IMG/VR virus record: IMGVR_UViG_3300031673_000418 | Span: 1 to 26,220 of that record | Origin: a virus | Reading direction: 5' to 3' (one strand) | Length of the DNA: 26,220 bases | In this document: positions 1-24,939 of the stretch, one piece after another | Layout of the letters: every line of letters starts with the position of its first letter | Position numbering within the stretch: the first letter of the stretch is position 1 | Made by a program: the position numbers and the translations under genes | The notes under the pieces: generated by a model | Seen by the model: only the letters and a program-made list of their open reading frames with translations | Told to the model about the DNA's origin: nothing | Database searches by the model: none

Positions 1-1
1 C

Positions 2-205
2 AATATTGCTGGTGATTTGATTGCTGGTGCCGGAATCGCTACGAAATCAATTAGTATTGACGGGATATCGCAGAGCATAGGGACCACTGCTAGTGCTACG
101 AACGCCGGGTATGGTGCAAGGATTCTGCAATATGAGAAGCAAATAAAAGACGATATCGGTACTTTAAGAAACTATTATCTAGGCCTACAGATGGCAGTCG
201 CTTAA
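2..205 (+). CDS. C-terminal fragment of an upstream phage protein (5' end outside window)
   Basis: The frame is open from the first bases of the window to a TAA at 203-205, so this is the last 67 residues of a gene beginning to the left. The visible end contains SISIDGISQSIGTTASATN followed by a helical, charged stretch (ARILQYEKQIKDDIGTLRNYY). From general familiarity, Ser/Thr-rich 'IDG-SQS-TT-SATN' tails like this occur at the C-terminus of large phage proteins near capsid and neck genes, so a virion protein is likely. I cannot name the family. The next gene follows after 42 bases with its own Shine-Dalgarno, so both are probably in one late transcript. A TTG at 17 could be read as a start, but the frame is already open before it and has no ribosome-binding site there. 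Confidence 0.6.
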   Translation, partial: NIAGDLIAGAGIATKSISIDGISQSIGTTASATNAGYGARILQYEKQIKDDIGTLRNYYLGLQMAVA

Positions 206-247
206 TAAATCCTAGATATTTCCGAAACAAATACTGGAGGATATTTA

Positions 248-658
248 ATGAACAAGCCTATAAAAACAAACTCTCAAATTTTGTCTGATTACAAAAGCCA
301 AGCCGATAACACTGGTGAATCAGAACTATCTATTTATTTATCAGAGATGCTTGGAGAGACCATATCTGGCGACAACGACGCAATGTCATCGATTACTCCT
401 GCGATAACTAAGATACACAGGTTAGAGCAAGAAATGTCTTATGTGGCTTCGGCAGCATCTGGGATTGGGGCTATTAATGAGAGAGTGAAGAATAGTTCAG
501 ATGCCATGAGAGACATGTTGATGGTGGTTTACGCTCTCTCCGTGAAGGTGGAGCGATTGCAAAATGCAGTGGATGTCTTGACTAAGAAGCTAGACGCAGA
601 AGACGTGACCAATCTAGATGCAAATTACAACGATTCTGTAAAAGGCGATTTAATTTAA
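248..658 (+). CDS. Hypothetical 136-aa protein with predicted coiled coil
   Basis: Family not recognised. The ATG at 248 is preceded by GGAGG at 236-240 with a 7-base spacer, which fixes the start. The N-terminal half is polar and acidic. Residues about 75-118 form a long amphipathic helix with heptad-like hydrophobic spacing (VYALSVKVERLQNAVDVLTKKL), so it probably forms a coiled-coil oligomer. There is no signal peptide, membrane segment or cysteine. It lies between an upstream putative virion gene and two glycine-rich paralogues, all on the same strand with short gaps. A small structural or assembly role in head or neck formation is plausible but is inferred from position only. Confidence 0.6.
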   Translation: MNKPIKTNSQILSDYKSQADNTGESELSIYLSEMLGETISGDNDAMSSITPAITKIHRLEQEMSYVASAASGIGAINERVKNSSDAMRDMLMVVYALSVKVERLQNAVDVLTKKLDAEDVTNLDANYNDSVKGDLI

Positions 659-676
659 TTGAAAGGAGAATGAGAA

Positions 677-1384
677 ATGAGTGAAAGACTTAAAATTCTA
701 GCCACCAGCATCACAGTTGATCCTGGCGGGGCAATCGTGAATGAGATCAGTAAGACAGATGATGCAGATCTTGTATATCCAGGAATTTATGGAGGGGGGA
801 AAATATTTGGTTCTGGTGGAGTTCCGAGTGGTGATCAACAGAGGTGGATCATTCATACCAGTAATGCAATGAACCAGAGGGGTACTTTCCAGGCGCAATT
901 GTTTGATAGTCTCGGAGTTCTTCGTGGTATGTCCTCTATACCACTAGGAGTTATGTTGTTTAATAGTTATGTTAAGGGCGTCCAGTTAGAAGCTACATTG
1001 GCAGCACACGGTACTGCTTGGTTCAATACAGAAAAAATTGAGGACTACAAAGGTGGTCAAGGTGCCCCAGATCCATGGCTAGGTATGAATTATAACTCAT
1101 ACAACAACGCAACAAACAATGTTGCTCTATGTGCGGGATACCTATTATCACCAGCAAATTACGCAACAGGAACTTTAGTTATCACTGTTGCTGGTAGGTT
1201 TGCTGCTGGAATGGGATTGGAAATCTGGTCTGGTATAGGAGATAATAATGGTAATGGTGGGTTTGGACATTTTAAGAATACTAATTCCCCACAAGGCCGT
1301 GCATACAAAGCCACTATTGAAGGTAGCGGCCCAGTTGAATTCACTATCCCACTTTTGATGGGAAGCATTCCTGATCCTGCATAA
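677..1384 (+). CDS. Gly-rich putative virion surface protein, copy 1 of a tandem pair
   Basis: This 235-aa protein is clearly paralogous to the next gene. Both start M-S/A-ERLK-I/V-LA, share a KTDD motif near residue 26, a (N)QRGTFQ / NQKGIFQ motif, an ANYATG-LVI segment followed by GxxLEIWSG, and end in the identical string EGSGPVEFTIP. The composition (Gly, Asn, Tyr, Ser, short beta-prone stretches, no long helix) suits an all-beta surface protein. The start has AAAGGAGAA at 661-669 upstream. Its place among head- or neck-proximal genes suggests a capsid decoration, head-fibre or other appendage protein. The fold and role are inferred, and no database family was recognised. An open frame on the opposite strand inside it is a shadow. 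Confidence 0.6.
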   Translation: MSERLKILATSITVDPGGAIVNEISKTDDADLVYPGIYGGGKIFGSGGVPSGDQQRWIIHTSNAMNQRGTFQAQLFDSLGVLRGMSSIPLGVMLFNSYVKGVQLEATLAAHGTAWFNTEKIEDYKGGQGAPDPWLGMNYNSYNNATNNVALCAGYLLSPANYATGTLVITVAGRFAAGMGLEIWSGIGDNNGNGGFGHFKNTNSPQGRAYKATIEGSGPVEFTIPLLMGSIPDPA

Positions 1385-1421
1385 ATTAAAAACTGTAACT
1401 AATTAAAGAGGAGAGAGAAAA

Positions 1422-2075
1422 ATGGCTGAAAGACTTAAAGTATTGGCAAGTGGCATTGTAGTTAGTTCGTTCGGAGCCTTGGTCACAGAGGTAAACAAAA
1501 CCGACGATATCGATCTAACCAGTCCTGGAGGAGCGGGAGGCAATGGAGATTTTCAGGTTTGGAAAGTTTTCACCACTGGCTCTGTTAATCAGAAGGGAAT
1601 TTTTCAAGTTGAGTTGCTTGACTCTGCTGGTGATTCCCAAGGTCTAGGTGGGGTGCCCTTTGCAGTAGGCGGTATCGGTTACAATAACCGGGGCGTAAGC
1701 ATGAGTGCTGTTAGAGCTGGCGGGGGCGGGTCTTGGCCTACGGAGGCGATCACTGACTTCAAAGGGCTTGGTGGCCCTTCTCCATGGCCGGGCGATACTT
1801 TCACGGTTGATGTGGGACATTCTATGTTGTTGGCCTCAAAGTATCTTATGAGTGCTGCAAATTATGCTACAGCGTCGCTGGTGATTCGCATGGGTGGCAA
1901 ATATGCTACTGGGCAAAGTCTTGAAATTTGGTCTGGATATGGGAGCGTGAACGATCCTCATAGCGTGCCTGGAACTTTTAATCCTGGGCCAGCCAATGCA
2001 AGAGCATATAAGGCGGTACTAGAGGGTAGTGGTCCAGTTGAGTTCACGATTCCTCTTTCAATCGTAACCATATAA
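1422..2075 (+). CDS. Gly-rich putative virion surface protein, copy 2 of a tandem pair
   Basis: This 217-aa paralogue of the preceding gene follows 37 bases after its stop and has AGAGGAGAG at about 1407-1415 as ribosome-binding site. The ends are best conserved (ERLKVLA at the N-terminus; LEIWSG and EGSGPVEFTIP at the C-terminus). The central third, including the loop around residues 85-125, has diverged and is partly deleted. That pattern of fixed ends and a variable middle is what duplicated surface or receptor-facing proteins often show, but a decoration role is only inferred. It is the last rightward gene before the hairpin at 2082-2112, so it closes the left-hand transcription unit. Confidence 0.6.
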   Translation: MAERLKVLASGIVVSSFGALVTEVNKTDDIDLTSPGGAGGNGDFQVWKVFTTGSVNQKGIFQVELLDSAGDSQGLGGVPFAVGGIGYNNRGVSMSAVRAGGGGSWPTEAITDFKGLGGPSPWPGDTFTVDVGHSMLLASKYLMSAANYATASLVIRMGGKYATGQSLEIWSGYGSVNDPHSVPGTFNPGPANARAYKAVLEGSGPVEFTIPLSIVTI

Positions 2076-2081
2076 AACTGT

Positions 2082-2112
2082 GCGGGAGGGGGTCGTATTG
2101 GCTCTCTCCCGC
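2082..2112. terminator. Bidirectional rho-independent terminator between convergent genes
   Basis: The arms 2082-2092 (GCGGGAGGGGG) and 2102-2112 (CTCTCTCCCGC) pair over 11 positions, two of them G-U in the plus transcript, around a 9-base loop. A T4 tract follows on the plus strand at 2120-2123. The minus strand also reads into a T4 tract after the hairpin (complement of AAAA at 2074-2077). It lies exactly between the end of the rightward gene at 2075 and the stop of the leftward gene at 2112-2114, so it can terminate both. The T tracts are short and set a few bases from the stem, so efficiency may be moderate. Confidence 0.65.
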
Positions 2113-2267
2113 TATCTACTTTTGATAATGCACTGACTCTTACCACAGTGCGGGCAGCCCTTCTTCTTCTCCGCTTCTTCTTCTTCTTTAAATTTCACTT
2201 CCGACATTACTCGTTTGAACGTCTGAAGAAAGTGGATAGCGTGAATTTGATGCATTGTCAGTTCCAT
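2112..2267 (-). CDS. 51-aa Cys-rich small protein (CxxC-x4-C), last gene of leftward operon
   Basis: This is a short frame read on the minus strand from ATG at 2267 to TAG at 2114-2112. It has an N-terminal helical part, a run of Glu and Lys (KEEEEAEKKK), then GCPHCGKSQC near residues 37-46. The CPHCGK knuckle with one further Cys and a nearby His looks like a minimal or half zinc ribbon. Three Cys plus one His could bind a metal, or two chains could share a site. GGAGGA lies inside the last codons of the upstream gene and the start follows that gene's TAA by one base, so translation is probably coupled. Function unknown. It could be a small regulator or nucleic-acid-binding peptide, as many such phage proteins are, but this is speculative. 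Confidence 0.6.
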   Translation of the reverse strand: MELTMHQIHAIHFLQTFKRVMSEVKFKEEEEAEKKKGCPHCGKSQCIIKSR

Positions 2268-2268
2268 T

Positions 2269-2559
2269 TTAGTAGTCTCCTCCATCATCGAGGCAGTTTA
2301 AGAAATCATCCACTAATTTCCCTTCCAGCTCTTCTGTTAGTTTTTTGTTTAAAAGCTCTGTGACAGATTTACCGGACTTGGTTTCTACTTCCAGATCTTC
2401 TACATATGGCATAGAGATCCCAACATCTGGTTCGGCTGGTTGTATAACGCCAGTGACTACCACATCAAGATCGTCTCCAGGTTCGTCTACAAACTTATCG
2501 AGAGCGGGACATCCCTCGGTGCTCATGGTCGTTTCAAATTCCCATCTATCGTTTCTCAT
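2269..2559 (-). CDS. Hypothetical acidic 96-aa protein, leftward operon
   Basis: The start ATG at 2559 is preceded on the minus strand by AAGGAG about 7 bases away, lying inside the 3' end of the gene before it. The protein is strongly acidic, with clusters DEPGDDLD and DDGGDY, and has a helical stretch ELLNKKLTEELEGKLVDDFL near residues 68-87. There is no signal peptide, membrane segment or recognised domain. The stop is one base before the next ATG. Small acidic phage proteins are sometimes inhibitors of host nucleic-acid-binding enzymes or DNA mimics. I note that only as a possibility. Confidence 0.55.
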   Translation of the reverse strand: MRNDRWEFETTMSTEGCPALDKFVDEPGDDLDVVVTGVIQPAEPDVGISMPYVEDLEVETKSGKSVTELLNKKLTEELEGKLVDDFLNCLDDGGDY

Positions 2560-2562
2560 TAT

Positions 2563-2883
2563 TCACTCCTTAATAATACAAAGATTGAACGCTGACTCGG
2601 CTTCTATGCGGTGTTTCAATTGAGGCTTCTGGCATCCTTCGTCGTCCCCGTTCCATCCGTCATAAAATGCATTCCCTCCGTCGTCCCTCAATCTACTTTT
2701 AAATTCGTCCATAAATGTTTCTGCCTTCTCTCTCATACTCCATTTTTCAAAACTGTAAGTGTCTAGCGAACTCAGGTATTCGGTAAACAGGTCTAGCATG
2801 TGAGATTTAGTGAAATGGAATGAGAATTTGAAATCGGTTCCCAATTCACCGTGTCTGCGCTCTGTGAATTTAATTTTTCTCAT
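2563..2883 (-). CDS. Hypothetical 106-aa protein, leftward operon
   Basis: Not recognised. The gene starts at ATG 2883, overlapping the end of the upstream gene by 14 bases, with AAAGGGA just upstream as a weak to moderate ribosome-binding site. The protein has a beta-prone, basic N-terminus (KIKFTERRHGELG then FKFSFHF), a helical middle (residues about 30-67) and a C-terminal segment rich in Asp, Gly and Trp (YDGWNGDDEG). No transmembrane segment is visible. The tight overlap argues that it is expressed with its neighbours from the promoter region near 3440. Confidence 0.55.
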   Translation of the reverse strand: MRKIKFTERRHGELGTDFKFSFHFTKSHMLDLFTEYLSSLDTYSFEKWSMREKAETFMDEFKSRLRDDGGNAFYDGWNGDDEGCQKPQLKHRIEAESAFNLCIIKE

Positions 2884-3172
2884 CGTTCCCTTTCTCTAGG
2901 TATTCGCAGACTTCGTCGTAGGAGGCACCGGCGGCCTTGCAAAGAGCTTCTAGGTAGTCGCAATCCCCATCCTCGACTGCGAAATCGTTCAAGGTTCCAC
3001 CGTCTTGATCGATGATGGCTCCGGTAGCCTGGGAAACAAACTCGGCGATGGTGTTCGCTCGAATCGTGTCGCCGTTGTGAAGGGCCTGCCATCTCCCGCT
3101 ATCCTCATTGACTTCTTCAATGAATTCTCCGTCTGGCAGGAAATATTTAAATTTTGATTTTTCATCACTCAT
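2870..3172 (-). CDS. Hypothetical acidic 100-aa protein, leftward operon
   Basis: The start ATG at 3172 has GAGG about 6 bases upstream on the minus strand. The protein is acidic throughout. It opens with a beta-prone part (KFKYFLPDGEFIEEVNEDSG), continues with a segment ANTIAEFVSQATGAIIDQDGG, and ends in a helical region with two cysteines (DYLEALCKAAGASYDEVCEYLEKG). A second frame lies on the same strand at about 2880-3092, but it is Arg-rich, lacks a ribosome-binding site and is a shadow. No family was recognised and no function can be claimed. Confidence 0.6.
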   Translation of the reverse strand: MSDEKSKFKYFLPDGEFIEEVNEDSGRWQALHNGDTIRANTIAEFVSQATGAIIDQDGGTLNDFAVEDGDCDYLEALCKAAGASYDEVCEYLEKGNDEKN

Positions 3173-3219
3173 TATTTCCTCTTCTTTGTGCGTAGGGCCT
3201 TTCAGGCTCTCTTTTCTTT

Positions 3220-3420
3220 CTAAAATCTCTTGCCGGAGTCATCTTTTTCGCAACCCATCCAACCAAAGGGATAGACAACTATGTAGTTGTAAGAGCGGTC
3301 TCCAACGACTGCGAAGGCTTTCTTCTCAGCCGACTTTCTGGTTCGTGCCCTAGTTTCAAACTCACTCATGTAAGTCCCTGCCAACCCGACAAATTCAATT
3401 TTTACTTTCCAGACTTTCAT
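3220..3420 (-). CDS. Hypothetical 66-aa basic protein, first gene of leftward operon
   Basis: The start is set at ATG 3420, which has a full AGGAGG four bases upstream. An in-frame ATG at 3486 would read through the palindromic control region and has no good ribosome-binding site, so it was not used. The protein begins MKVWKVKIEFVG and continues with a basic helix (TRARTRKSAEKKAFAVVG) and a beta-prone end (YNYIVVYPF). This strand-helix-strand pattern resembles short phage proteins that I know only as hypotheticals. It is the promoter-proximal gene of the reverse-strand cluster, which makes it a reasonable candidate for a small regulator. That is inference. Confidence 0.55.
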   Translation of the reverse strand: MKVWKVKIEFVGLAGTYMSEFETRARTRKSAEKKAFAVVGDRSYNYIVVYPFGWMGCEKDDSGKRF

Positions 3421-3438
3421 CGTTCCTCCTACACTTAT

Positions 3439-3463
3439 AATGTACCACATAGCGTGGTACATT
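3439..3463. promoter_or_regulatory. 25-bp palindrome, putative operator overlapping the leftward promoter
   Basis: AATGTACCAC and GTGGTACATT form perfect 10-bp arms around the 5-base centre ATAGC. Read on the minus strand, a -35-like TTGCAA (3467-3462) and a -10-like TACATT (3444-3439) sit 17 bases apart, so the palindrome covers the whole promoter spacer. The first gene of the leftward operon starts 19 bases downstream. This geometry fits a dimeric repressor that blocks RNA polymerase. Both promoter hexamers match the consensus at only four of six positions, and the leader would be very short, so the exact promoter is uncertain while the palindrome itself is plain. Confidence 0.6.
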
Positions 3464-3466
3464 GCA

Positions 3467-3480
3467 ACAAATAAATTTGT
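3467..3480. repeat. Second adjacent palindrome ACAAATAAATTTGT
   Basis: Six-bp perfect arms (ACAAAT / ATTTGT) surround a 2-base centre, three bases beyond the 25-bp palindrome. It lies directly upstream of the putative -35 of the leftward promoter, where activators or a second repressor dimer could bind. AT-rich palindromes of this size can arise by chance, so the call depends mainly on position. Confidence 0.35.
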
Positions 3481-3502
3481 ACGCATAAAAACGTAACTTG
3501 CT

Positions 3503-3508
3503 TAAAAT
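3503..3508 (+). promoter_or_regulatory. Candidate -10 element for the rightward neck-tail operon
   Basis: TAAAAT matches the bacterial -10 consensus at five of six positions and lies in the only sizeable intergenic gap (3421-3595) in front of the rightward neck-to-fibre genes. A TTGTAC at 3477-3482 is the best -35 candidate, but the 20-base spacer is longer than optimal. Phage late promoters often need a phage-coded factor and may look quite different. The remainder of the gap, about 3509-3595, shows a CCGG-GTTT-CCGG mini-hairpin and no other clear signal. Confidence 0.25.
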
Positions 3509-3595
3509 ATTGAGTTTATTTCGTGCCTACATCCGGGTTTCCGGCGGGATTCTACTGCTGGGGAGGCTCCAGAGAGGGCCTTCCGATAGGGTGGT

Positions 3596-4366
3596 ATGAG
3601 CGAATTTCAGCCTGCGAGCCCGAACAGATACCCCAAGCGGAAAGGGAAGCCTGGACGAGTCGATTTGGACGTTTCGGAGCTGGATAACCTAATTGACGAC
3701 CAAGGTATCAGGCTCCGAATTGTGCCGTCCATCCTGTGCCCCAACCGAGATACGCTGGAGGGGACGAACCATCATCTGGATTGCACCGTTTGCAACGGGG
3801 ATGAGGCGGTGGACGTAGTGGATGAATGTTTCGAAACTTTCGGGGCAATCCAGAGTATCCGACATGAAAAAAAGTTAGAGGTCCAGGGGATTTGGGACGA
3901 GAAGGACGCGACTCTGACCCTGCAATCCAAAGATAGAATCTATTTCTGGTACAAGGTCATTGTCCTGGATTTTGCTTCTATTTATAACGAACTCATTAAG
4001 AAGGACGACGACGATACCGACAAGTTGAGATACCCACCGAATAGGTCTTGTGACACTCCATATCACTTAATTGATTCTGAGAATAAGTCATACAGAAAAG
4101 GGGTGGATTACAGAATAATTAATGAAACATTCTTAAAATGGCTGACTAGTAACAGACCTAAAGTCGGAACCTTGTATTCCATTTGTTACCCGGTTTTCCC
4201 CACGTTCAGAGTTCTAGAGACTTTGCACGAAAATCGATTTTACAATGTGACATCCAAAGAGAAGGAAAGAGTCCCGGTGAACCTCCCGCAGCAGGCCGTG
4301 ATCAGATGGGACTATTTGGCAAATAGATCTGGGAACCGGCAAATCATTAACGAAGAGCCCACATGA
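3596..4366 (+). CDS. Putative neck / head-completion protein with Cys-His cluster
   Basis: This 256-aa protein comes first in the rightward neck-tail unit and is followed directly by tail completion and terminator genes, the usual place of a head-tail adaptor or head-closure protein. A putative zinc-binding cluster is visible: C48 in ILCPN, H59-H60, C63 and C66 (HHLDCTVCNG). Phage proteins in this position often carry a similar CPN...C..C knuckle. The rest is a mixed alpha/beta region, with RIYFWYKVIVLDF in the middle and a C-terminal segment containing VIRWDYL. GGGTGG just upstream serves as a modest ribosome-binding site for ATG 3596. The stop overlaps the next start by four bases (ATGA). 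The role is inferred from synteny and the Cys cluster. Confidence 0.5.
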   Translation: MSEFQPASPNRYPKRKGKPGRVDLDVSELDNLIDDQGIRLRIVPSILCPNRDTLEGTNHHLDCTVCNGDEAVDVVDECFETFGAIQSIRHEKKLEVQGIWDEKDATLTLQSKDRIYFWYKVIVLDFASIYNELIKKDDDDTDKLRYPPNRSCDTPYHLIDSENKSYRKGVDYRIINETFLKWLTSNRPKVGTLYSICYPVFPTFRVLETLHENRFYNVTSKEKERVPVNLPQQAVIRWDYLANRSGNRQIINEEPT

Positions 4367-6279: not shown

Positions 6280-8415
6280 ATGGCGATTATCGTAACTTTT
6301 AATGGGGTTCCACTGCTTGATCCAGGCTCTTACAGCCGAATTTTGGCGGAGAATCTTTCTGGATTCCCCCTCCAGCCCACTGGGACAGTCGGGATCATCG
6401 GGAATGCTTTGGGTGGGCAACCTAGAGTCCTGGATGTCCTCGAAAAGACTTCGATACAGAGCGCGAAAGAACGCTACAAAGAGGGCGAAATCGCAGATGC
6501 CTTGGAGCTTCTGGTGAGTCCGTCTGGTGATCCAAGAATCGTGAATGGCGCGAGCAAAGTCGTAGTCTATAAAGTGAACAATAGCACTCAGTCTACTTCT
6601 CCATTAAACAACCCAAATGCTCAAGAAGTTATCAAGCTCGATTCGAAAAATTATGGATCTGACGAAAACAATTTGATTCGCAATGTTAGTCAGGGGGAAG
6701 TCGTCGATGCAGACGCAGAGATCGATGGTTCCATTGACGGTCCTTTCACATTGGCAGGTGGGGAAACTCTGATTCTACGAGCGAATGGGGTTACTTACAC
6801 CTACACAGAGAGTCTTGGTGTAGGCGTACACACTGCGGCAGCGTTGGCTGCGGATATGGATTCTGGAGGTAACTGGGCTCCTGCGAAGCCGGTCCTGGTC
6901 GATGTGAACCCTGCATCCGTTTTAAAAATCCGTGTGCGACTCGACCCATCGGTGGTGATTGGTGGAGAGTTGGATTACGGGTATCTCGAAGTAGACCCGA
7001 CTTCGACAATAGACACTGTGATTGGGGTTATAGGTTCAAACCGAGGAGTGAAGGGATCTAGAATTATTGTATTCTCGAAGGGTGGGAATGAAGAAACTAC
7101 GTTGGAAATGGGCGGAGTGAATGTCTCCAGCATCCTCTATACCGGGGCTGGCACATCTTGCCTCCTTGATGTGCTCCGGGTCGGCGGGGAACTGCGACTT
7201 AAGACAACATGTGCCGGAGCCGCAGCAGACAATTTGGATATCCTATTAGAGGATTCCGAAGGGCGTAATAAGCTAACTGTGTCCGAACTGGCGGTCCTGA
7301 TAAACTCAAACGCCTCTTACACCGCGAGCAACTTGTTCCCCAACGGGAATCAAAATGCAAATGAATTGGATTATTACGACGATCTAGAAATTATTGATGT
7401 CGCTGGGGTTCTCAGAAGAGATGTGTTTGACGCAGTTGATTACATGAATACCTTCCTCACCGCTGCCGTGGCGACAAGGATAGACAACATCTACCGTGCT
7501 TATGTCGCAGACGGATTGGATACCTTATTCACCGGAGCCGGTGACGGGACATCTGCGAACGGCGACTGGGCCGATGGATTCAATGCATTCAAACAAATAC
7601 GAATCAACTCCGTAGTCCCCCTAATTTCGAAAGACATTGGGGCTGTGACGATTGATTCCATCAATGCCTTGGCGAAGGGTCATGTGAAGGCGATGTGGGC
7701 CACAGATGGTGGTTCTGAGAGAAATGCATACGTCTCCAAATTGGGGACGAAGGACGAACTCCTCGCTGCGGCAAAGAGTTTGAACGATTTCCCGATCTCC
7801 ATATGCGGACAGCAAGTCAGGGTCCTGGATCGAACTAGCACTTTGGTCTGGCAGGACCCATGGGCAAAATGTTGTATCGCCGCTGGAATGCAGCAAGGGT
7901 CTGAGGTCGGAGAGCCCATCACCAAAAAGATTTTGAATGTGAATGATGTGCGAGTCCTGGATAGTTCTTGGGATCCGACTATCAATAAAAACGAAATGAT
8001 AGCGGCAGGGATTTTATTCTCTCAGCCACTCGACACGGGCGGGCATAGATGGGTCGTGGGGAATACGACTTGGAGTCGAGATGGTAGTTTCGTTTGGAAT
8101 AGGATCTCGGTTGTGGAGGCGGCTGGATTCATCGTTTATGATCTTCGATATAATCTAGATCTTGTATTCACTGGAACGAAGGCGCGTACTGGAACGGCAG
8201 AGGCCATCGCGAATTTTATTCGAAATCGAATGTCCGTGTATCTGGAAAACGATATTACTGTTGGCGATGATAGAAACGATCAATTGGGATACAGGAAATT
8301 GCGAGTAGAACTCACTGGGAGTAGGGCGGCAATTAATTTAGCTGTGACCCCAGTCCAAGGGGTGGATTTCACTCTGCCGACAATCTATTTAGAAGATATC
8401 CGACAAAGCGCGTAA
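6280..8415 (+). CDS. Tail sheath protein (contractile tail)
   Basis: This 711-aa protein forms the contractile outer layer of the tail. The N-terminus (VTFNGVPLLDPGSYSRI) and the C-terminal region with GGHRWVVGNTTWSRDGSFVWNR split over residues 588-610, LRYNLDLVFTGTKARTG, and the final LP TIYLEDI are typical of myophage sheaths. The C-terminal domain carries the strand that interlocks neighbouring subunits. It is larger than many sheaths because of inserted domains at residues about 147-250 and 256-370. The first of these (GPFTLAGGETLILRANG) resembles modules of the baseplate J protein in this window. AAGGGAG precedes ATG 6280. The tube gene follows 15 bases later, the standard sheath-tube order. 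Confidence 0.9.
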   Translation: MAIIVTFNGVPLLDPGSYSRILAENLSGFPLQPTGTVGIIGNALGGQPRVLDVLEKTSIQSAKERYKEGEIADALELLVSPSGDPRIVNGASKVVVYKVNNSTQSTSPLNNPNAQEVIKLDSKNYGSDENNLIRNVSQGEVVDADAEIDGSIDGPFTLAGGETLILRANGVTYTYTESLGVGVHTAAALAADMDSGGNWAPAKPVLVDVNPASVLKIRVRLDPSVVIGGELDYGYLEVDPTSTIDTVIGVIGSNRGVKGSRIIVFSKGGNEETTLEMGGVNVSSILYTGAGTSCLLDVLRVGGELRLKTTCAGAAADNLDILLEDSEGRNKLTVSELAVLINSNASYTASNLFPNGNQNANELDYYDDLEIIDVAGVLRRDVFDAVDYMNTFLTAAVATRIDNIYRAYVADGLDTLFTGAGDGTSANGDWADGFNAFKQIRINSVVPLISKDIGAVTIDSINALAKGHVKAMWATDGGSERNAYVSKLGTKDELLAAAKSLNDFPISICGQQVRVLDRTSTLVWQDPWAKCCIAAGMQQGSEVGEPITKKILNVNDVRVLDSSWDPTINKNEMIAAGILFSQPLDTGGHRWVVGNTTWSRDGSFVWNRISVVEAAGFIVYDLRYNLDLVFTGTKARTGTAEAIANFIRNRMSVYLENDITVGDDRNDQLGYRKLRVELTGSRAAINLAVTPVQGVDFTLPTIYLEDIRQSA

Positions 8416-16167: not shown

Positions 16168-19100
16168 ATGGGATTTTTTACACCTAGAATTTTTCCAGAG
16201 ATCCAAGGGGAGATGATAGCCAATGTATTGGCCACTACTCCTTTGACCGATGTTAACTTCCCATCAGTTTGGACCTCGATGCTTGATGCGGCTGCGACCG
16301 AGGATGACGAACAGTATTTCGCGATGCTTGAGATTGTCAGGGCATTCTCTCTCGATACTATAACTGGAACAGACTTAGATGATAGAGCCGCAGAATCGTC
16401 CGTCAGTGAGCGAAGGTCTGCAAAGAAGGCCTCCACTACCGTCACCCTTGGGGATACCGCTGTAACCAAAATTTCTACTGGTGTTTATTCTGGCAAGCCT
16501 GGACCTGCCGCTACTACTTCCGCAATAAATGGTGATTCTGCCACTGGATTTTTAGCTTCTGGATCGATAATTATAGGTCGTGGGACTCCAAACGCAGAGA
16601 CAGTCCCATATAGTTCGATATCTGTTTTTGCGAATTATGTAACATTCAATCTAAGTGCAGCACTTGCATTTGATCATGGGACCGATGAAACGATAATTCG
16701 ATCTCAAGGTGGAAATCGACTTATAAATGCTGGAGTTGTTGTTTTCGTACCATCTTCGGACATTAGTGAAAAAATTGAATTCATATTGGATTCCGCCGCC
16801 ACGATTCTAGATGGTGAGAGAGTCATTGAGAATGTGCAGGTAACGGCTGTGAATGCCGGAGCCTCCTCTAACGTGCCAATCGGATCTATTAGGGAGTACG
16901 ATTCCAACCCATTCTCTACAGCTACAGTGACCAATCCTAGCCGGGTGACAAATGGTAGGGATGTGGAAACTGACCAGGAATTAAGAGACAGGATAAAAAG
17001 CACGATTCAGTCCCTGTCTCGCGGGACCGGAACGGCTATCATTACTGGAGCCCTTGGGCTCATCTCTGGGAACCAAAGAGTCGTGTCTGCATCTATAGTA
17101 GAGCCAACTTTGCCAGCAGACGTGGTCAAACTCTACATTGATGATGGCGCTGGATCTCCGTTCACCTTCGAAAACATTGGATTCGAGCAAGTCTTGGCGG
17201 CGGCTACTGGCGGGGAGAAGTTTCTAAACGTAGACAATGTCCCTTTGGTTAAGGCTTTCGTAGAGACCATCAGCAACGCCCCATTCACCTTGTTTGGTGG
17301 AGAAATTCTATTCGTTGATGTCGGTGGGGTGGTTGAGACCATAACATTCGAGAGTGCGGACTTCCTTGCTCCTGGTGCGGCCACGGCTCAAGAAGTCCTA
17401 ACCAGAATCAATGCGAGTGCATCTCTATTTGAATCTAGGATATCAGTAGGGGATAAGATAAGGATATTTGCCCGCGCAAATTTCCAAGAGGAGATACAGG
17501 TAACTGGTGGGACGGCCAACACCGCCCTTGCGTTCCCAACAGATAATAAATTCACAACAAAATTATTTTTAGAAAGAGATTTTGAACTAACTCTTTTATC
17601 AAAAGATGGCCGGACAGCCACTATAGAATCAGGGAGCGCAGAAGCCTATGACCTGTCTGGAGAGATTAAATCTTTTCAAATCGTTGCTGATGGTAAAATT
17701 GATAATCCTATTTCTGTATTTCTCAATCCTACTAGTTTCGTTGACGCTGCGAATGCGACTGCTGAAGAAGTCTGCGCTCTAGTGGAATCACAGTCTCCTG
17801 GAATTTCATGTGAGGCTTCTTCAAACGACACTAAATTTAGACTGACCTCAAAAACTACGAAAGACATCACTTCTAAAATCAGGGTTGTCGGAACTTTCGA
17901 CCAGGTCTGGAACGAGGAGGGTGGCTCCCCGTTCGTGGAGCGGACGGCAGATTCAAAGGGCGTCGCTACTTACACTCTTTTTGGGGCCGACCTGGATTAC
18001 ATCTATCTTGGTCATTCCGATGTCAAATTTAATGTTGTATTCCCAATATTTAACACTGTGTCTTCTGCGGACGTGGGGGCAGTATACGAACAATGGGATG
18101 GGGCCATCTGGAGGCAGCTTGGGGTGGCCGACAATACAAATGGATTTCAGCAAGACGGTTATATCTCCCTCCCTAACAATCCAAGATGGGTCAAGACTTC
18201 TGTGAATGGCAGTATCAATATGTATTTCCTCAGAATTCAGAGGAATAATGCCGCTGCTATTACGGCTCCTATTATTGAAAGATTTGTAATTTCTTCTTCA
18301 AACTTGGAGTTTGCGTTTGATGAAACCGAGATCGTTGGAGCTAATAAAGATTATACACTCAACCGCTTCATCGGACAAATTGAGCTAGAATCCCCATCGA
18401 ATGTCGGGGATAGATTAACCCTTGGGTCTTTGATCACCAGGGCGTTTGTTACAACGACAGTAAACGGGAACTACGCTTTATTCGGTGGAGAAGTATTCGA
18501 TATTGAAATTGATGGAGTATTCCAGACTTACACTTTCTTGGTTGGAGATTTCACGATTCCGGGATCCGCAACGCCTGCCGAAGTGGCTATCGCATTGAAT
18601 AGAGAATTGGGTGGGATAACTTCTGCGACAGTGGATTCTGGATTGAAAGTGGAGATATCAACAAACAAAATGAATGGTGGGAGTCTAAAGGTTCTCTCTA
18701 GCACGGCGAATGCGATCCTATTGTTTTCTGAGATACAGTCTGAAAGTTTCATCCCACATCTGGCGGCGGTAGAATCTGGGAGTGCAGAGCCATATAGTTT
18801 CGCGACGAATGATACTTTAATAGTGATTATAGATGGCGCTCTAGGCAATAACACCACGGTCCCGGTTTTCTTTGGGAGTTTGCTGACCGCAGTGACCAGC
18901 CCGTCGATTGTCATAGACACCGGACTGAATGTTACATTTCCGCTGGACACAGATCTGGTTGGATATGAGATAGAAATGATTGATGGGGCTCAGGCTGGGG
19001 TGAGGAGAGTAATTTCAACCTATGTCGCAGCCACCGGGACCATTACGACCACGGCGGGATTCCCAGGCGCTCCTTCTATTGGAGATTCTTTCCAGATACT

Positions 19101-19713
19101 GCCGGTAGACGCTGACAAAGTCGTTAGGTTCCTGAACAACAAACTAATTACTACCATAAGCTCTAGGGCTGAAATAAAAACATCGAGTGGTGGGGTAAAG
19201 GTGCAGATAGCCACCTTGAATCCAGGAGAAGATGGTTCGGTGCAGGTGAGTGGTGGTGGAGCGAATGCCGTTCTCAACTTCCCTGTGACGAAATCCATTG
19301 GAGTGGACGGATACCGTTATTATTCCAATCTCGCCCAATTCACTCAGCAAACCATTGACGGGATAGAGGGGGACGAAGATTTCCAAGGTATCAGGGCGGC
19401 TGGGGTCCAGGTTGAGGTGTCGGAAGCTGTTACCATCCCAATCTTTATAGACCTAGATGTGACTACCGAAGATGGTGTAACTCTAAATTCTATATCTAAT
19501 GAAATCAAAACCGCTGTGTCCAATTACATCAACAATCTTGGAGTCAGAGACGATGTTATTAGGACTCAGATCGAATGCGCTGTGAAAGATGTGGTCGGAG
19601 TATTCGATATAGAGGTAACAAGATTAGACCCGGCGTCGGTCGGAAGTAGGAACATCGCGATTGCCGACAATGAGCGAGCAAGGATAAATGAAGGAGACAT
19701 AGTCGTTGGGTAA
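16168..19713 (+). CDS. Baseplate J-like wedge protein, greatly enlarged (gp6/gp47-like)
   Basis: This 1181-aa protein has a J-like N-terminal core (residues about 1-330: RAFSLDTITGTDLDDRAAES, ILDGERVIENVQVTAVNAG, SNVPIGSI, RVTNGRDVETDQELRDRI) and a J-like end (about 1045-1181: AAGVQVEVSEAV, IDLDVTTEDGVTL, DPASVGSRNIAIADNERAR). Ordinary J proteins have about 300-500 aa. The extra length is an insertion of beta modules: about 361-460 and 757-855 (both LFGGE ... T/STANxxLxF), about 485-580 and 867-1040 (both begin ESGSAE-Y), and a different WDGAIWRQLG-type domain near 640-690. J proteins form the iris-like ring around the hub and trigger sheath contraction. The inserts may face outward. It overlaps the next gene by eight bases. 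Confidence 0.8.
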   Translation: MGFFTPRIFPEIQGEMIANVLATTPLTDVNFPSVWTSMLDAAATEDDEQYFAMLEIVRAFSLDTITGTDLDDRAAESSVSERRSAKKASTTVTLGDTAVTKISTGVYSGKPGPAATTSAINGDSATGFLASGSIIIGRGTPNAETVPYSSISVFANYVTFNLSAALAFDHGTDETIIRSQGGNRLINAGVVVFVPSSDISEKIEFILDSAATILDGERVIENVQVTAVNAGASSNVPIGSIREYDSNPFSTATVTNPSRVTNGRDVETDQELRDRIKSTIQSLSRGTGTAIITGALGLISGNQRVVSASIVEPTLPADVVKLYIDDGAGSPFTFENIGFEQVLAAATGGEKFLNVDNVPLVKAFVETISNAPFTLFGGEILFVDVGGVVETITFESADFLAPGAATAQEVLTRINASASLFESRISVGDKIRIFARANFQEEIQVTGGTANTALAFPTDNKFTTKLFLERDFELTLLSKDGRTATIESGSAEAYDLSGEIKSFQIVADGKIDNPISVFLNPTSFVDAANATAEEVCALVESQSPGISCEASSNDTKFRLTSKTTKDITSKIRVVGTFDQVWNEEGGSPFVERTADSKGVATYTLFGADLDYIYLGHSDVKFNVVFPIFNTVSSADVGAVYEQWDGAIWRQLGVADNTNGFQQDGYISLPNNPRWVKTSVNGSINMYFLRIQRNNAAAITAPIIERFVISSSNLEFAFDETEIVGANKDYTLNRFIGQIELESPSNVGDRLTLGSLITRAFVTTTVNGNYALFGGEVFDIEIDGVFQTYTFLVGDFTIPGSATPAEVAIALNRELGGITSATVDSGLKVEISTNKMNGGSLKVLSSTANAILLFSEIQSESFIPHLAAVESGSAEPYSFATNDTLIVIIDGALGNNTTVPVFFGSLLTAVTSPSIVIDTGLNVTFPLDTDLVGYEIEMIDGAQAGVRRVISTYVAATGTITTTAGFPGAPSIGDSFQILPVDADKVVRFLNNKLITTISSRAEIKTSSGGVKVQIATLNPGEDGSVQVSGGGANAVLNFPVTKSIGVDGYRYYSNLAQFTQQTIDGIEGDEDFQGIRAAGVQVEVSEAVTIPIFIDLDVTTEDGVTLNSISNEIKTAVSNYINNLGVRDDVIRTQIECAVKDVVGVFDIEVTRLDPASVGSRNIAIADNERARINEGDIVVG

Positions 19714-24890: not shown

Positions 24891-24894
24891 AAAT
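24879..24894. repeat. 16-bp palindrome GTTTCTACGTAGAAAT, copy 2
   Basis: The inner 14 bases (TTTCTACGTAGAAA) are a perfect palindrome, and 14 of 16 bases match copy 1 at 8856-8871. It covers the stop codon of the holin-like gene and lies about 45 bases before the helicase gene, at the boundary between lysis and replication modules. As at copy 1, no T tract follows. It could be a phage regulator's DNA site or a small RNA processing hairpin. Confidence 0.55.
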
Positions 24895-24900
24895 GAAGAT

Positions 24901-24932
24901 CGTTGTAAAGCGTTGTAAAGCGTTGTAAAGCG
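24901..24932. repeat. Direct repeat: 3.2 copies of a 10-bp unit, CGTTGTAAAG
   Basis: CGTTGTAAAG occurs three times without a gap at 24901-24930 and continues with CG. The 10-bp period is close to one helical turn, so every copy faces the same side of the DNA, as with iteron-type binding sites. It lies directly in front of the helicase start and after the palindrome at 24879-24894. The last AAAG may also act as a weak ribosome-binding site for ATG 24940. Confidence 0.7.
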
Positions 24933-24939
24933 ATTCCCA

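Follow-up and report, generated by a model that had tools for sequence, protein, structure and literature searches.

We conclude, at a probability of roughly 70%, that five small minus-strand genes among the neck genes of an uncultured myovirus are the leftward half of an accessory island and form a separately expressed operon whose products are most likely host-directed. The window, that is, the whole stretch of DNA analysed here (26,220 bases), is the entire IMG/VR record IMGVR_UViG_3300031673_000418, which is itself a fragment. It carries a myovirus late region including neck proteins, sheath, baseplate genes, an endolysin and a helicase whose N-terminus is of the UvsW type. No close DNA match to the window was found among named phages, and no integrase or repressor was seen in this fragment. 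A 10-base unit, CGTTGTAAAG, is repeated three times in tandem at 24891-24939, with a small ORF on one side and the UvsW-like helicase gene on the other. The features referred to below are as follows, with coding scores given per codon.

1-205, plus strand: 3' end of the gene for a 260-aa neck protein, the left flank of the insertion
206-3595, no strand assigned: lineage-specific island of 3,390 bases between two neck genes, present in the window and in a 99.94% identical copy
248-658, plus strand: 136-aa orphan gene of the island (ORF, SD, coding score 0.17), matching no family and predicted to be helical through weak profile matches only
677-1384, plus strand: 235-aa orphan gene, paralogue of the gene at 1422-2075, with no database relatives
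1422-2075, plus strand: 217-aa orphan gene with a variable 3' end
2082-2112, no strand assigned: two-way terminator-like hairpin of 31 bases between the converging 217-aa gene and minus block (terminator scan, folds of both strands)
2112-2267, minus strand: m5, 51 aa, basic, orphan, with a single CxxC...C motif and the SD GGAGGAG
2269-2559, minus strand: m4, 96 aa, strongly acidic (net charge -17.5), SD, coding score 0.23
2563-2883, minus strand: m3, 106 aa, orphan, SD, overlapping m2 by 14 nt
2870-3172, minus strand: m2, 100 aa, strongly acidic (net charge -16.4), orphan, SD, coding score 0.23
3220-3420, minus strand: m1, 66 aa, basic (pI 9.6), orphan, leading the leftward block, with the strong SD AGGAGG
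3439-3463, no strand assigned: palindrome AATGTACCAC-N5-GTGGTACATT, with 10-base arms and a 5-base loop, immediately upstream of m1
3596-4366, plus strand: 256-aa neck/virion structural gene (phrog_1004), the right flank of the insertion
6280-8415: sheath gene
16168-19713: J-like baseplate wedge gene

The five minus-strand genes are real. They fill the minus strand of 2112-3420 at the lengths (66, 100, 106, 96 and 51 aa) and in the almost gap-free or overlapping arrangement given by the original prediction, which was borne out by the frames, the SD sites, the shuffles and the skew. In gene order from m1 to m5, the successive genes are separated by a gap of 47 nt, an overlap of 14 nt, and gaps of 3 nt and 1 nt, and an SD-like sequence lies ahead of the start in all five; an alternative form of m5 has 58 aa and starts at 2288. 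ORFs of at least 50 aa with an ATG and an SD covered 96% of the minus strand across the block, whereas coverage in 2000 dinucleotide shuffles averaged 3% and peaked at 55%, none of them being as full as the observed sequence. In a codon model trained on the window's structural genes, 100-codon chunks of known genes had a mean score of 0.19, and shadow frames a mean of -0.17 with a 95th percentile of 0.08. The scores of m1 to m4 ranged from 0.03 to 0.23, each exceeding those of the other five frames at its site. The signal was clear for m2 and m4, which were level with known genes; m1 and m3 were the top frame of six, yet scored close to the shadow-frame boundary, and m5, at -0.20, gave the weakest coding signal of the five. 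GC skew, calculated in 500-base steps, was negative from 2001 to 3750 and positive on either flank, with no other negative value in the first 7 kb, and AT skew was negative from 1501 to 3500. No base difference between the window and the 99.94% identical contig falls inside the five minus frames.

We examined the same locus in relatives found through a sheath-based search. The genes for the 260-aa and 256-aa neck proteins abut in six related contigs (L015, L018, L019, L020, L023 and L024), where they are joined by a stop-start overlap or a gap of 0-3 nt, compared with a gap of 3,390 bases in the window. Because L015 and L003 are one record and L018-L020 are apparently one lineage, the six contigs amount to about four lineages. 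Homologues of the 260-aa protein were 62-79% identical in near kin and 52% identical in L024, and none of the eight proteins encoded between the window's neck genes had a match in the six empty-site contigs. The empty site in kin, taken together with the 3,390-base gap, indicates that the five genes are a portion of a larger lineage-specific insert that also carries three rightward genes. The near-identical contig (L002/L014) has the same arrangement as the window, so an assembly error confined to a single contig does not account for it. As is characteristic of an accessory cassette, the insert is absent from close relatives in which the flanking genes are contiguous, and we consider it very probable that 206-3595 is an accessory island of the moron or hyperplastic-region type. 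An additional 107-aa ORF lies at 1411-1734 of L002, immediately ahead of the gene for the 260-aa neck protein, and is missing from L003; hence gene gain in the neck region may have occurred at more than one point in this virus.

These comparisons modify the original description of a self-contained, moron-like cassette that splits the virion gene cluster. The block does run against the late genes, but it does not stand alone between virion genes, being the right-hand part of the insert. Its accessory nature was upheld by its absence as a unit from the six contigs and by end signals of its own, but it is only partly self-contained, the three rightward genes belonging to the same 3.4-kb insert. 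Likewise, when related phages were compared for presence or absence of the block as a unit, as had been proposed, the unit missing from the six contigs proved to be the whole 3.4-kb insert and not the block alone.

The signals at the two ends of the block were not equally clear. The two-way hairpin expected on one side was found in folds of both strands: the 2082-2112 sequence folded with -25.1 kcal/mol (z -5.6) as plus-strand RNA and with -13.1 kcal/mol (z -3.6) as minus-strand RNA. Several of its pairs are G-U on the plus strand, so that it pairs better as plus-strand RNA; it is therefore primarily a rightward terminator and a less strong one in the leftward direction. It contains seven perfect DNA pairs enclosing 17 nt, has a GUAUU loop as RNA, and is bordered on each side by a T-rich tail, as would be expected of a terminator serving its own transcription unit. 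The palindromic promoter region placed on the other side was supported with respect to the palindrome but not the promoter, as no site upstream of m1 passed a sigma-70 scan. The palindrome, which lies with an AT-rich stretch upstream of m1, is the window's only perfect inverted repeat whose arms are 10 bases long and whose loop does not exceed 10. Among the other records searched, it recurred in the near-identical contig and, with three mismatches, once in Myxococcus phage Mx1, and no other perfect copy was found. It may be an operator or promoter element. A minus-strand sequence spotted by eye, TTGCAA-17-TACATT, straddles the palindrome, matches four of six positions in each box, and is a candidate promoter. 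The T4-type late promoter sequence TATAAATA occurs only once, on the minus strand within a gene at 3987, and was set aside as uninformative. The leader of the 256-aa gene folded no better than shuffled sequences.

Searches for the function of the five proteins were largely negative. Family searches with m1-m5 in Pfam, PHROGs, NCBIfam and PADLOC (which covers defence families, not anti-defence) gave no match that assigns a function, and neither did PDB searches with m1-m4. Profile searches and structure prediction had been proposed as a check in the original prediction. The profile searches yielded only a weak match of m4 to phrog_18992 (E 2.7e-4), a family of unknown function, and AlphaFold models built from the single sequences of m1 and m2 had a mean pLDDT of about 50, too poor for use. 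A search for phrog_18992 in Mx1 returned nothing. Scans of viral contigs with m1, m2 and m3 returned only the 99.94% identical contig, and genome scans with m2 and with the sheath returned nothing. A 34-residue alignment of m4 with L022 (E 0.008, 26% identity) was judged to be due to chance, and minus-strand ORFs at the end of L018 were dismissed as shadows within a baseplate gene. The prediction that two of the proteins are strongly acidic was confirmed in m2 and m4, and its remark that none is recognised as structural held, no structural family matching any of the five. For the host-interaction, anti-defence or superinfection role that it put forward as inference, these searches gave no direct support. 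Judged from the size and orientation of the genes and by analogy, a host-directed, non-virion role is most likely for the block; that its proteins act on the host is, as a separate claim, a tentative proposal to which we give somewhat less than even odds, and our confidence in any specific activity is low.

We weighed this reading against four others, one of which, a diversity-generating retroelement (DGR) target locus, is taken up below with the variable neighbouring gene. The minus frames might be chance or shadow ORFs in a region that either codes for nothing or has its genes on the plus strand, as the weak score of the 51-aa frame and the presence of overlapping plus-strand ORFs of 54-92 aa could suggest. 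However, those plus-strand ORFs had codon scores of -0.10 to -0.66, like shadows, whereas the larger minus frames do not score in this way, and the tiling of the block, unmatched in the shuffles, is accompanied by a flip in strand skew; we regard this explanation as extremely improbable. The location of the five genes in the structural region, beside neck genes, would be expected if they coded for accessory proteins of the virion or of its assembly, forming a set with the adjoining neck genes, and had been inverted by happenstance. This is unlikely, given their opposite orientation, the negative structural family searches, and the existence of kin that have the same neck, sheath and tube genes without the block, for which it must be dispensable. 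Finally, the block could be ancestral and have been lost separately in the relatives, as the evidence consists of presence and absence only, with no outgroup that carries the block. Against this, a tight neck junction, including the stop-start overlap, is present in about four lineages, and repeated clean loss is less likely than one gain; we give ancestry of the block a low probability.

If the five genes are a separately expressed operon, the leftward transcript would start at about 3440, close to the palindrome and perhaps controlled by an operator at that site, span all five genes, and end at the hairpin, where transcription coming rightward from the 217-aa gene would stop as well. Expression of the minus block would then be separate from that of the late structural genes and would probably precede it. 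No longer coupled to the gene upstream, the 256-aa gene would depend either on read-through or on a separate start within 3464-3595. The products, small and in part very acidic, would act on the host cell, in takeover, counter-defence or exclusion of rivals, rather than as parts of the virion.

The gene that converges on the block holds most of the differences from the near-identical contig. The two contigs differ at six positions across 10,363 bases, and five of these fall within 86 bases (1944-2029) at the 3' end of the 217-aa gene, where three codons are altered (AGC/GAC, CCT/CTT and AGT/CAT), all non-synonymously; none of 2 million random placements was clustered this tightly. The 217-aa gene and the gene at 677-1384 are tandem paralogues with 46% identity, for which no relatives were found in named phages, the PDB, or viral contigs beyond the same virus; their products are perhaps virion surface proteins. 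Possible sources of the variation are recombination, strong selection acting on a surface protein, and a retroelement located in another part of the genome. Such clustering of non-synonymous differences, and the position of the hairpin 6 nt past the stop codon, could indicate that the block and the 217-aa gene make up a DGR target locus in which the hairpin is the homing structure. Phage DGR hairpins have a GC-rich stem of 7-10 bp and a 4-nt GRNA loop, and lie 4-34 bp after the variable repeat (PMC3240598), a stem/loop pattern that the 2082-2112 hairpin does not have. In addition, no template repeat was found in the window or the near-identical contig, nor by blastn in the relatives searched, and no reverse transcriptase was found in seven virus records, all of which are fragments; NNY codons were no more enriched than in other genes, and the codon make-up was not DGR-like. 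We consider a DGR target locus very improbable. A broader proposal, in which the island is a coupled adaptation unit that combines tandem paralogous surface proteins, one of them subject to targeted hypervariation by an unseen retroelement or similar process, with a leftward operon that is controlled by a repressor and encodes new host-directed inhibitors, is speculative and has little chance of being correct.

The preferred reading, an accessory island with a leftward operon, locates an insertion slot for accessory genes among the neck genes of an uncultured myovirus group, the exact empty site being visible in relatives. The class of event, an ordinary accessory insertion in a phage, is familiar; the value lies in the five orphan proteins, which are candidates for host-directed activity, and in the variable neighbouring gene.

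A comparable arrangement occurs in a distant cousin. Myxococcus phage Mx1 was the only named phage returned by a search with the baseplate J protein (34.5% identity over 46% of the protein). In Mx1 (OR576727.2, 123822-129929; L006, 27823-33930), two baseplate genes are separated by twelve minus-strand genes, among them those for the NAD-salvage enzymes nicotinamide phosphoribosyltransferase and nicotinamide-nucleotide adenylyltransferase; in the window, the homologues of the two baseplate genes, of 620 and 1181 aa, are 8 nt apart. Blocks of small opposite-strand genes in the late region are therefore not special to the window. Both phages have small-gene clusters oriented against late genes, but that of Mx1 lies among baseplate genes, in another slot, and consists of other genes, with no detectable homology to m1-m5. 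Prophage ST64B carries an accessory locus antisense to its lytic genes (PMC7067206), and the island resembles such loci and morons (PMC7380047, PMC7067206) in that genes missing from relatives have been added to a late region, in the opposite orientation and with their own end signals. It differs from morons, which in the strict sense are expressed from a prophage, in having five leftward genes rather than one or two and in holding rightward genes as well. T4-like cyanophages have an insertion-prone stretch between g15 and g18 in the structural module (PMC2984593). The phage group is unrelated to that of the window, and here the right half of the insert opposes the late genes, while host-derived metabolic genes were not recognised; nevertheless, the island shares with this hyperplastic region of cyanomyoviruses a lineage-specific insertion of several genes, located between neck-type genes and the sheath gene, in which the order of the flanking genes is kept (PMC2984593).
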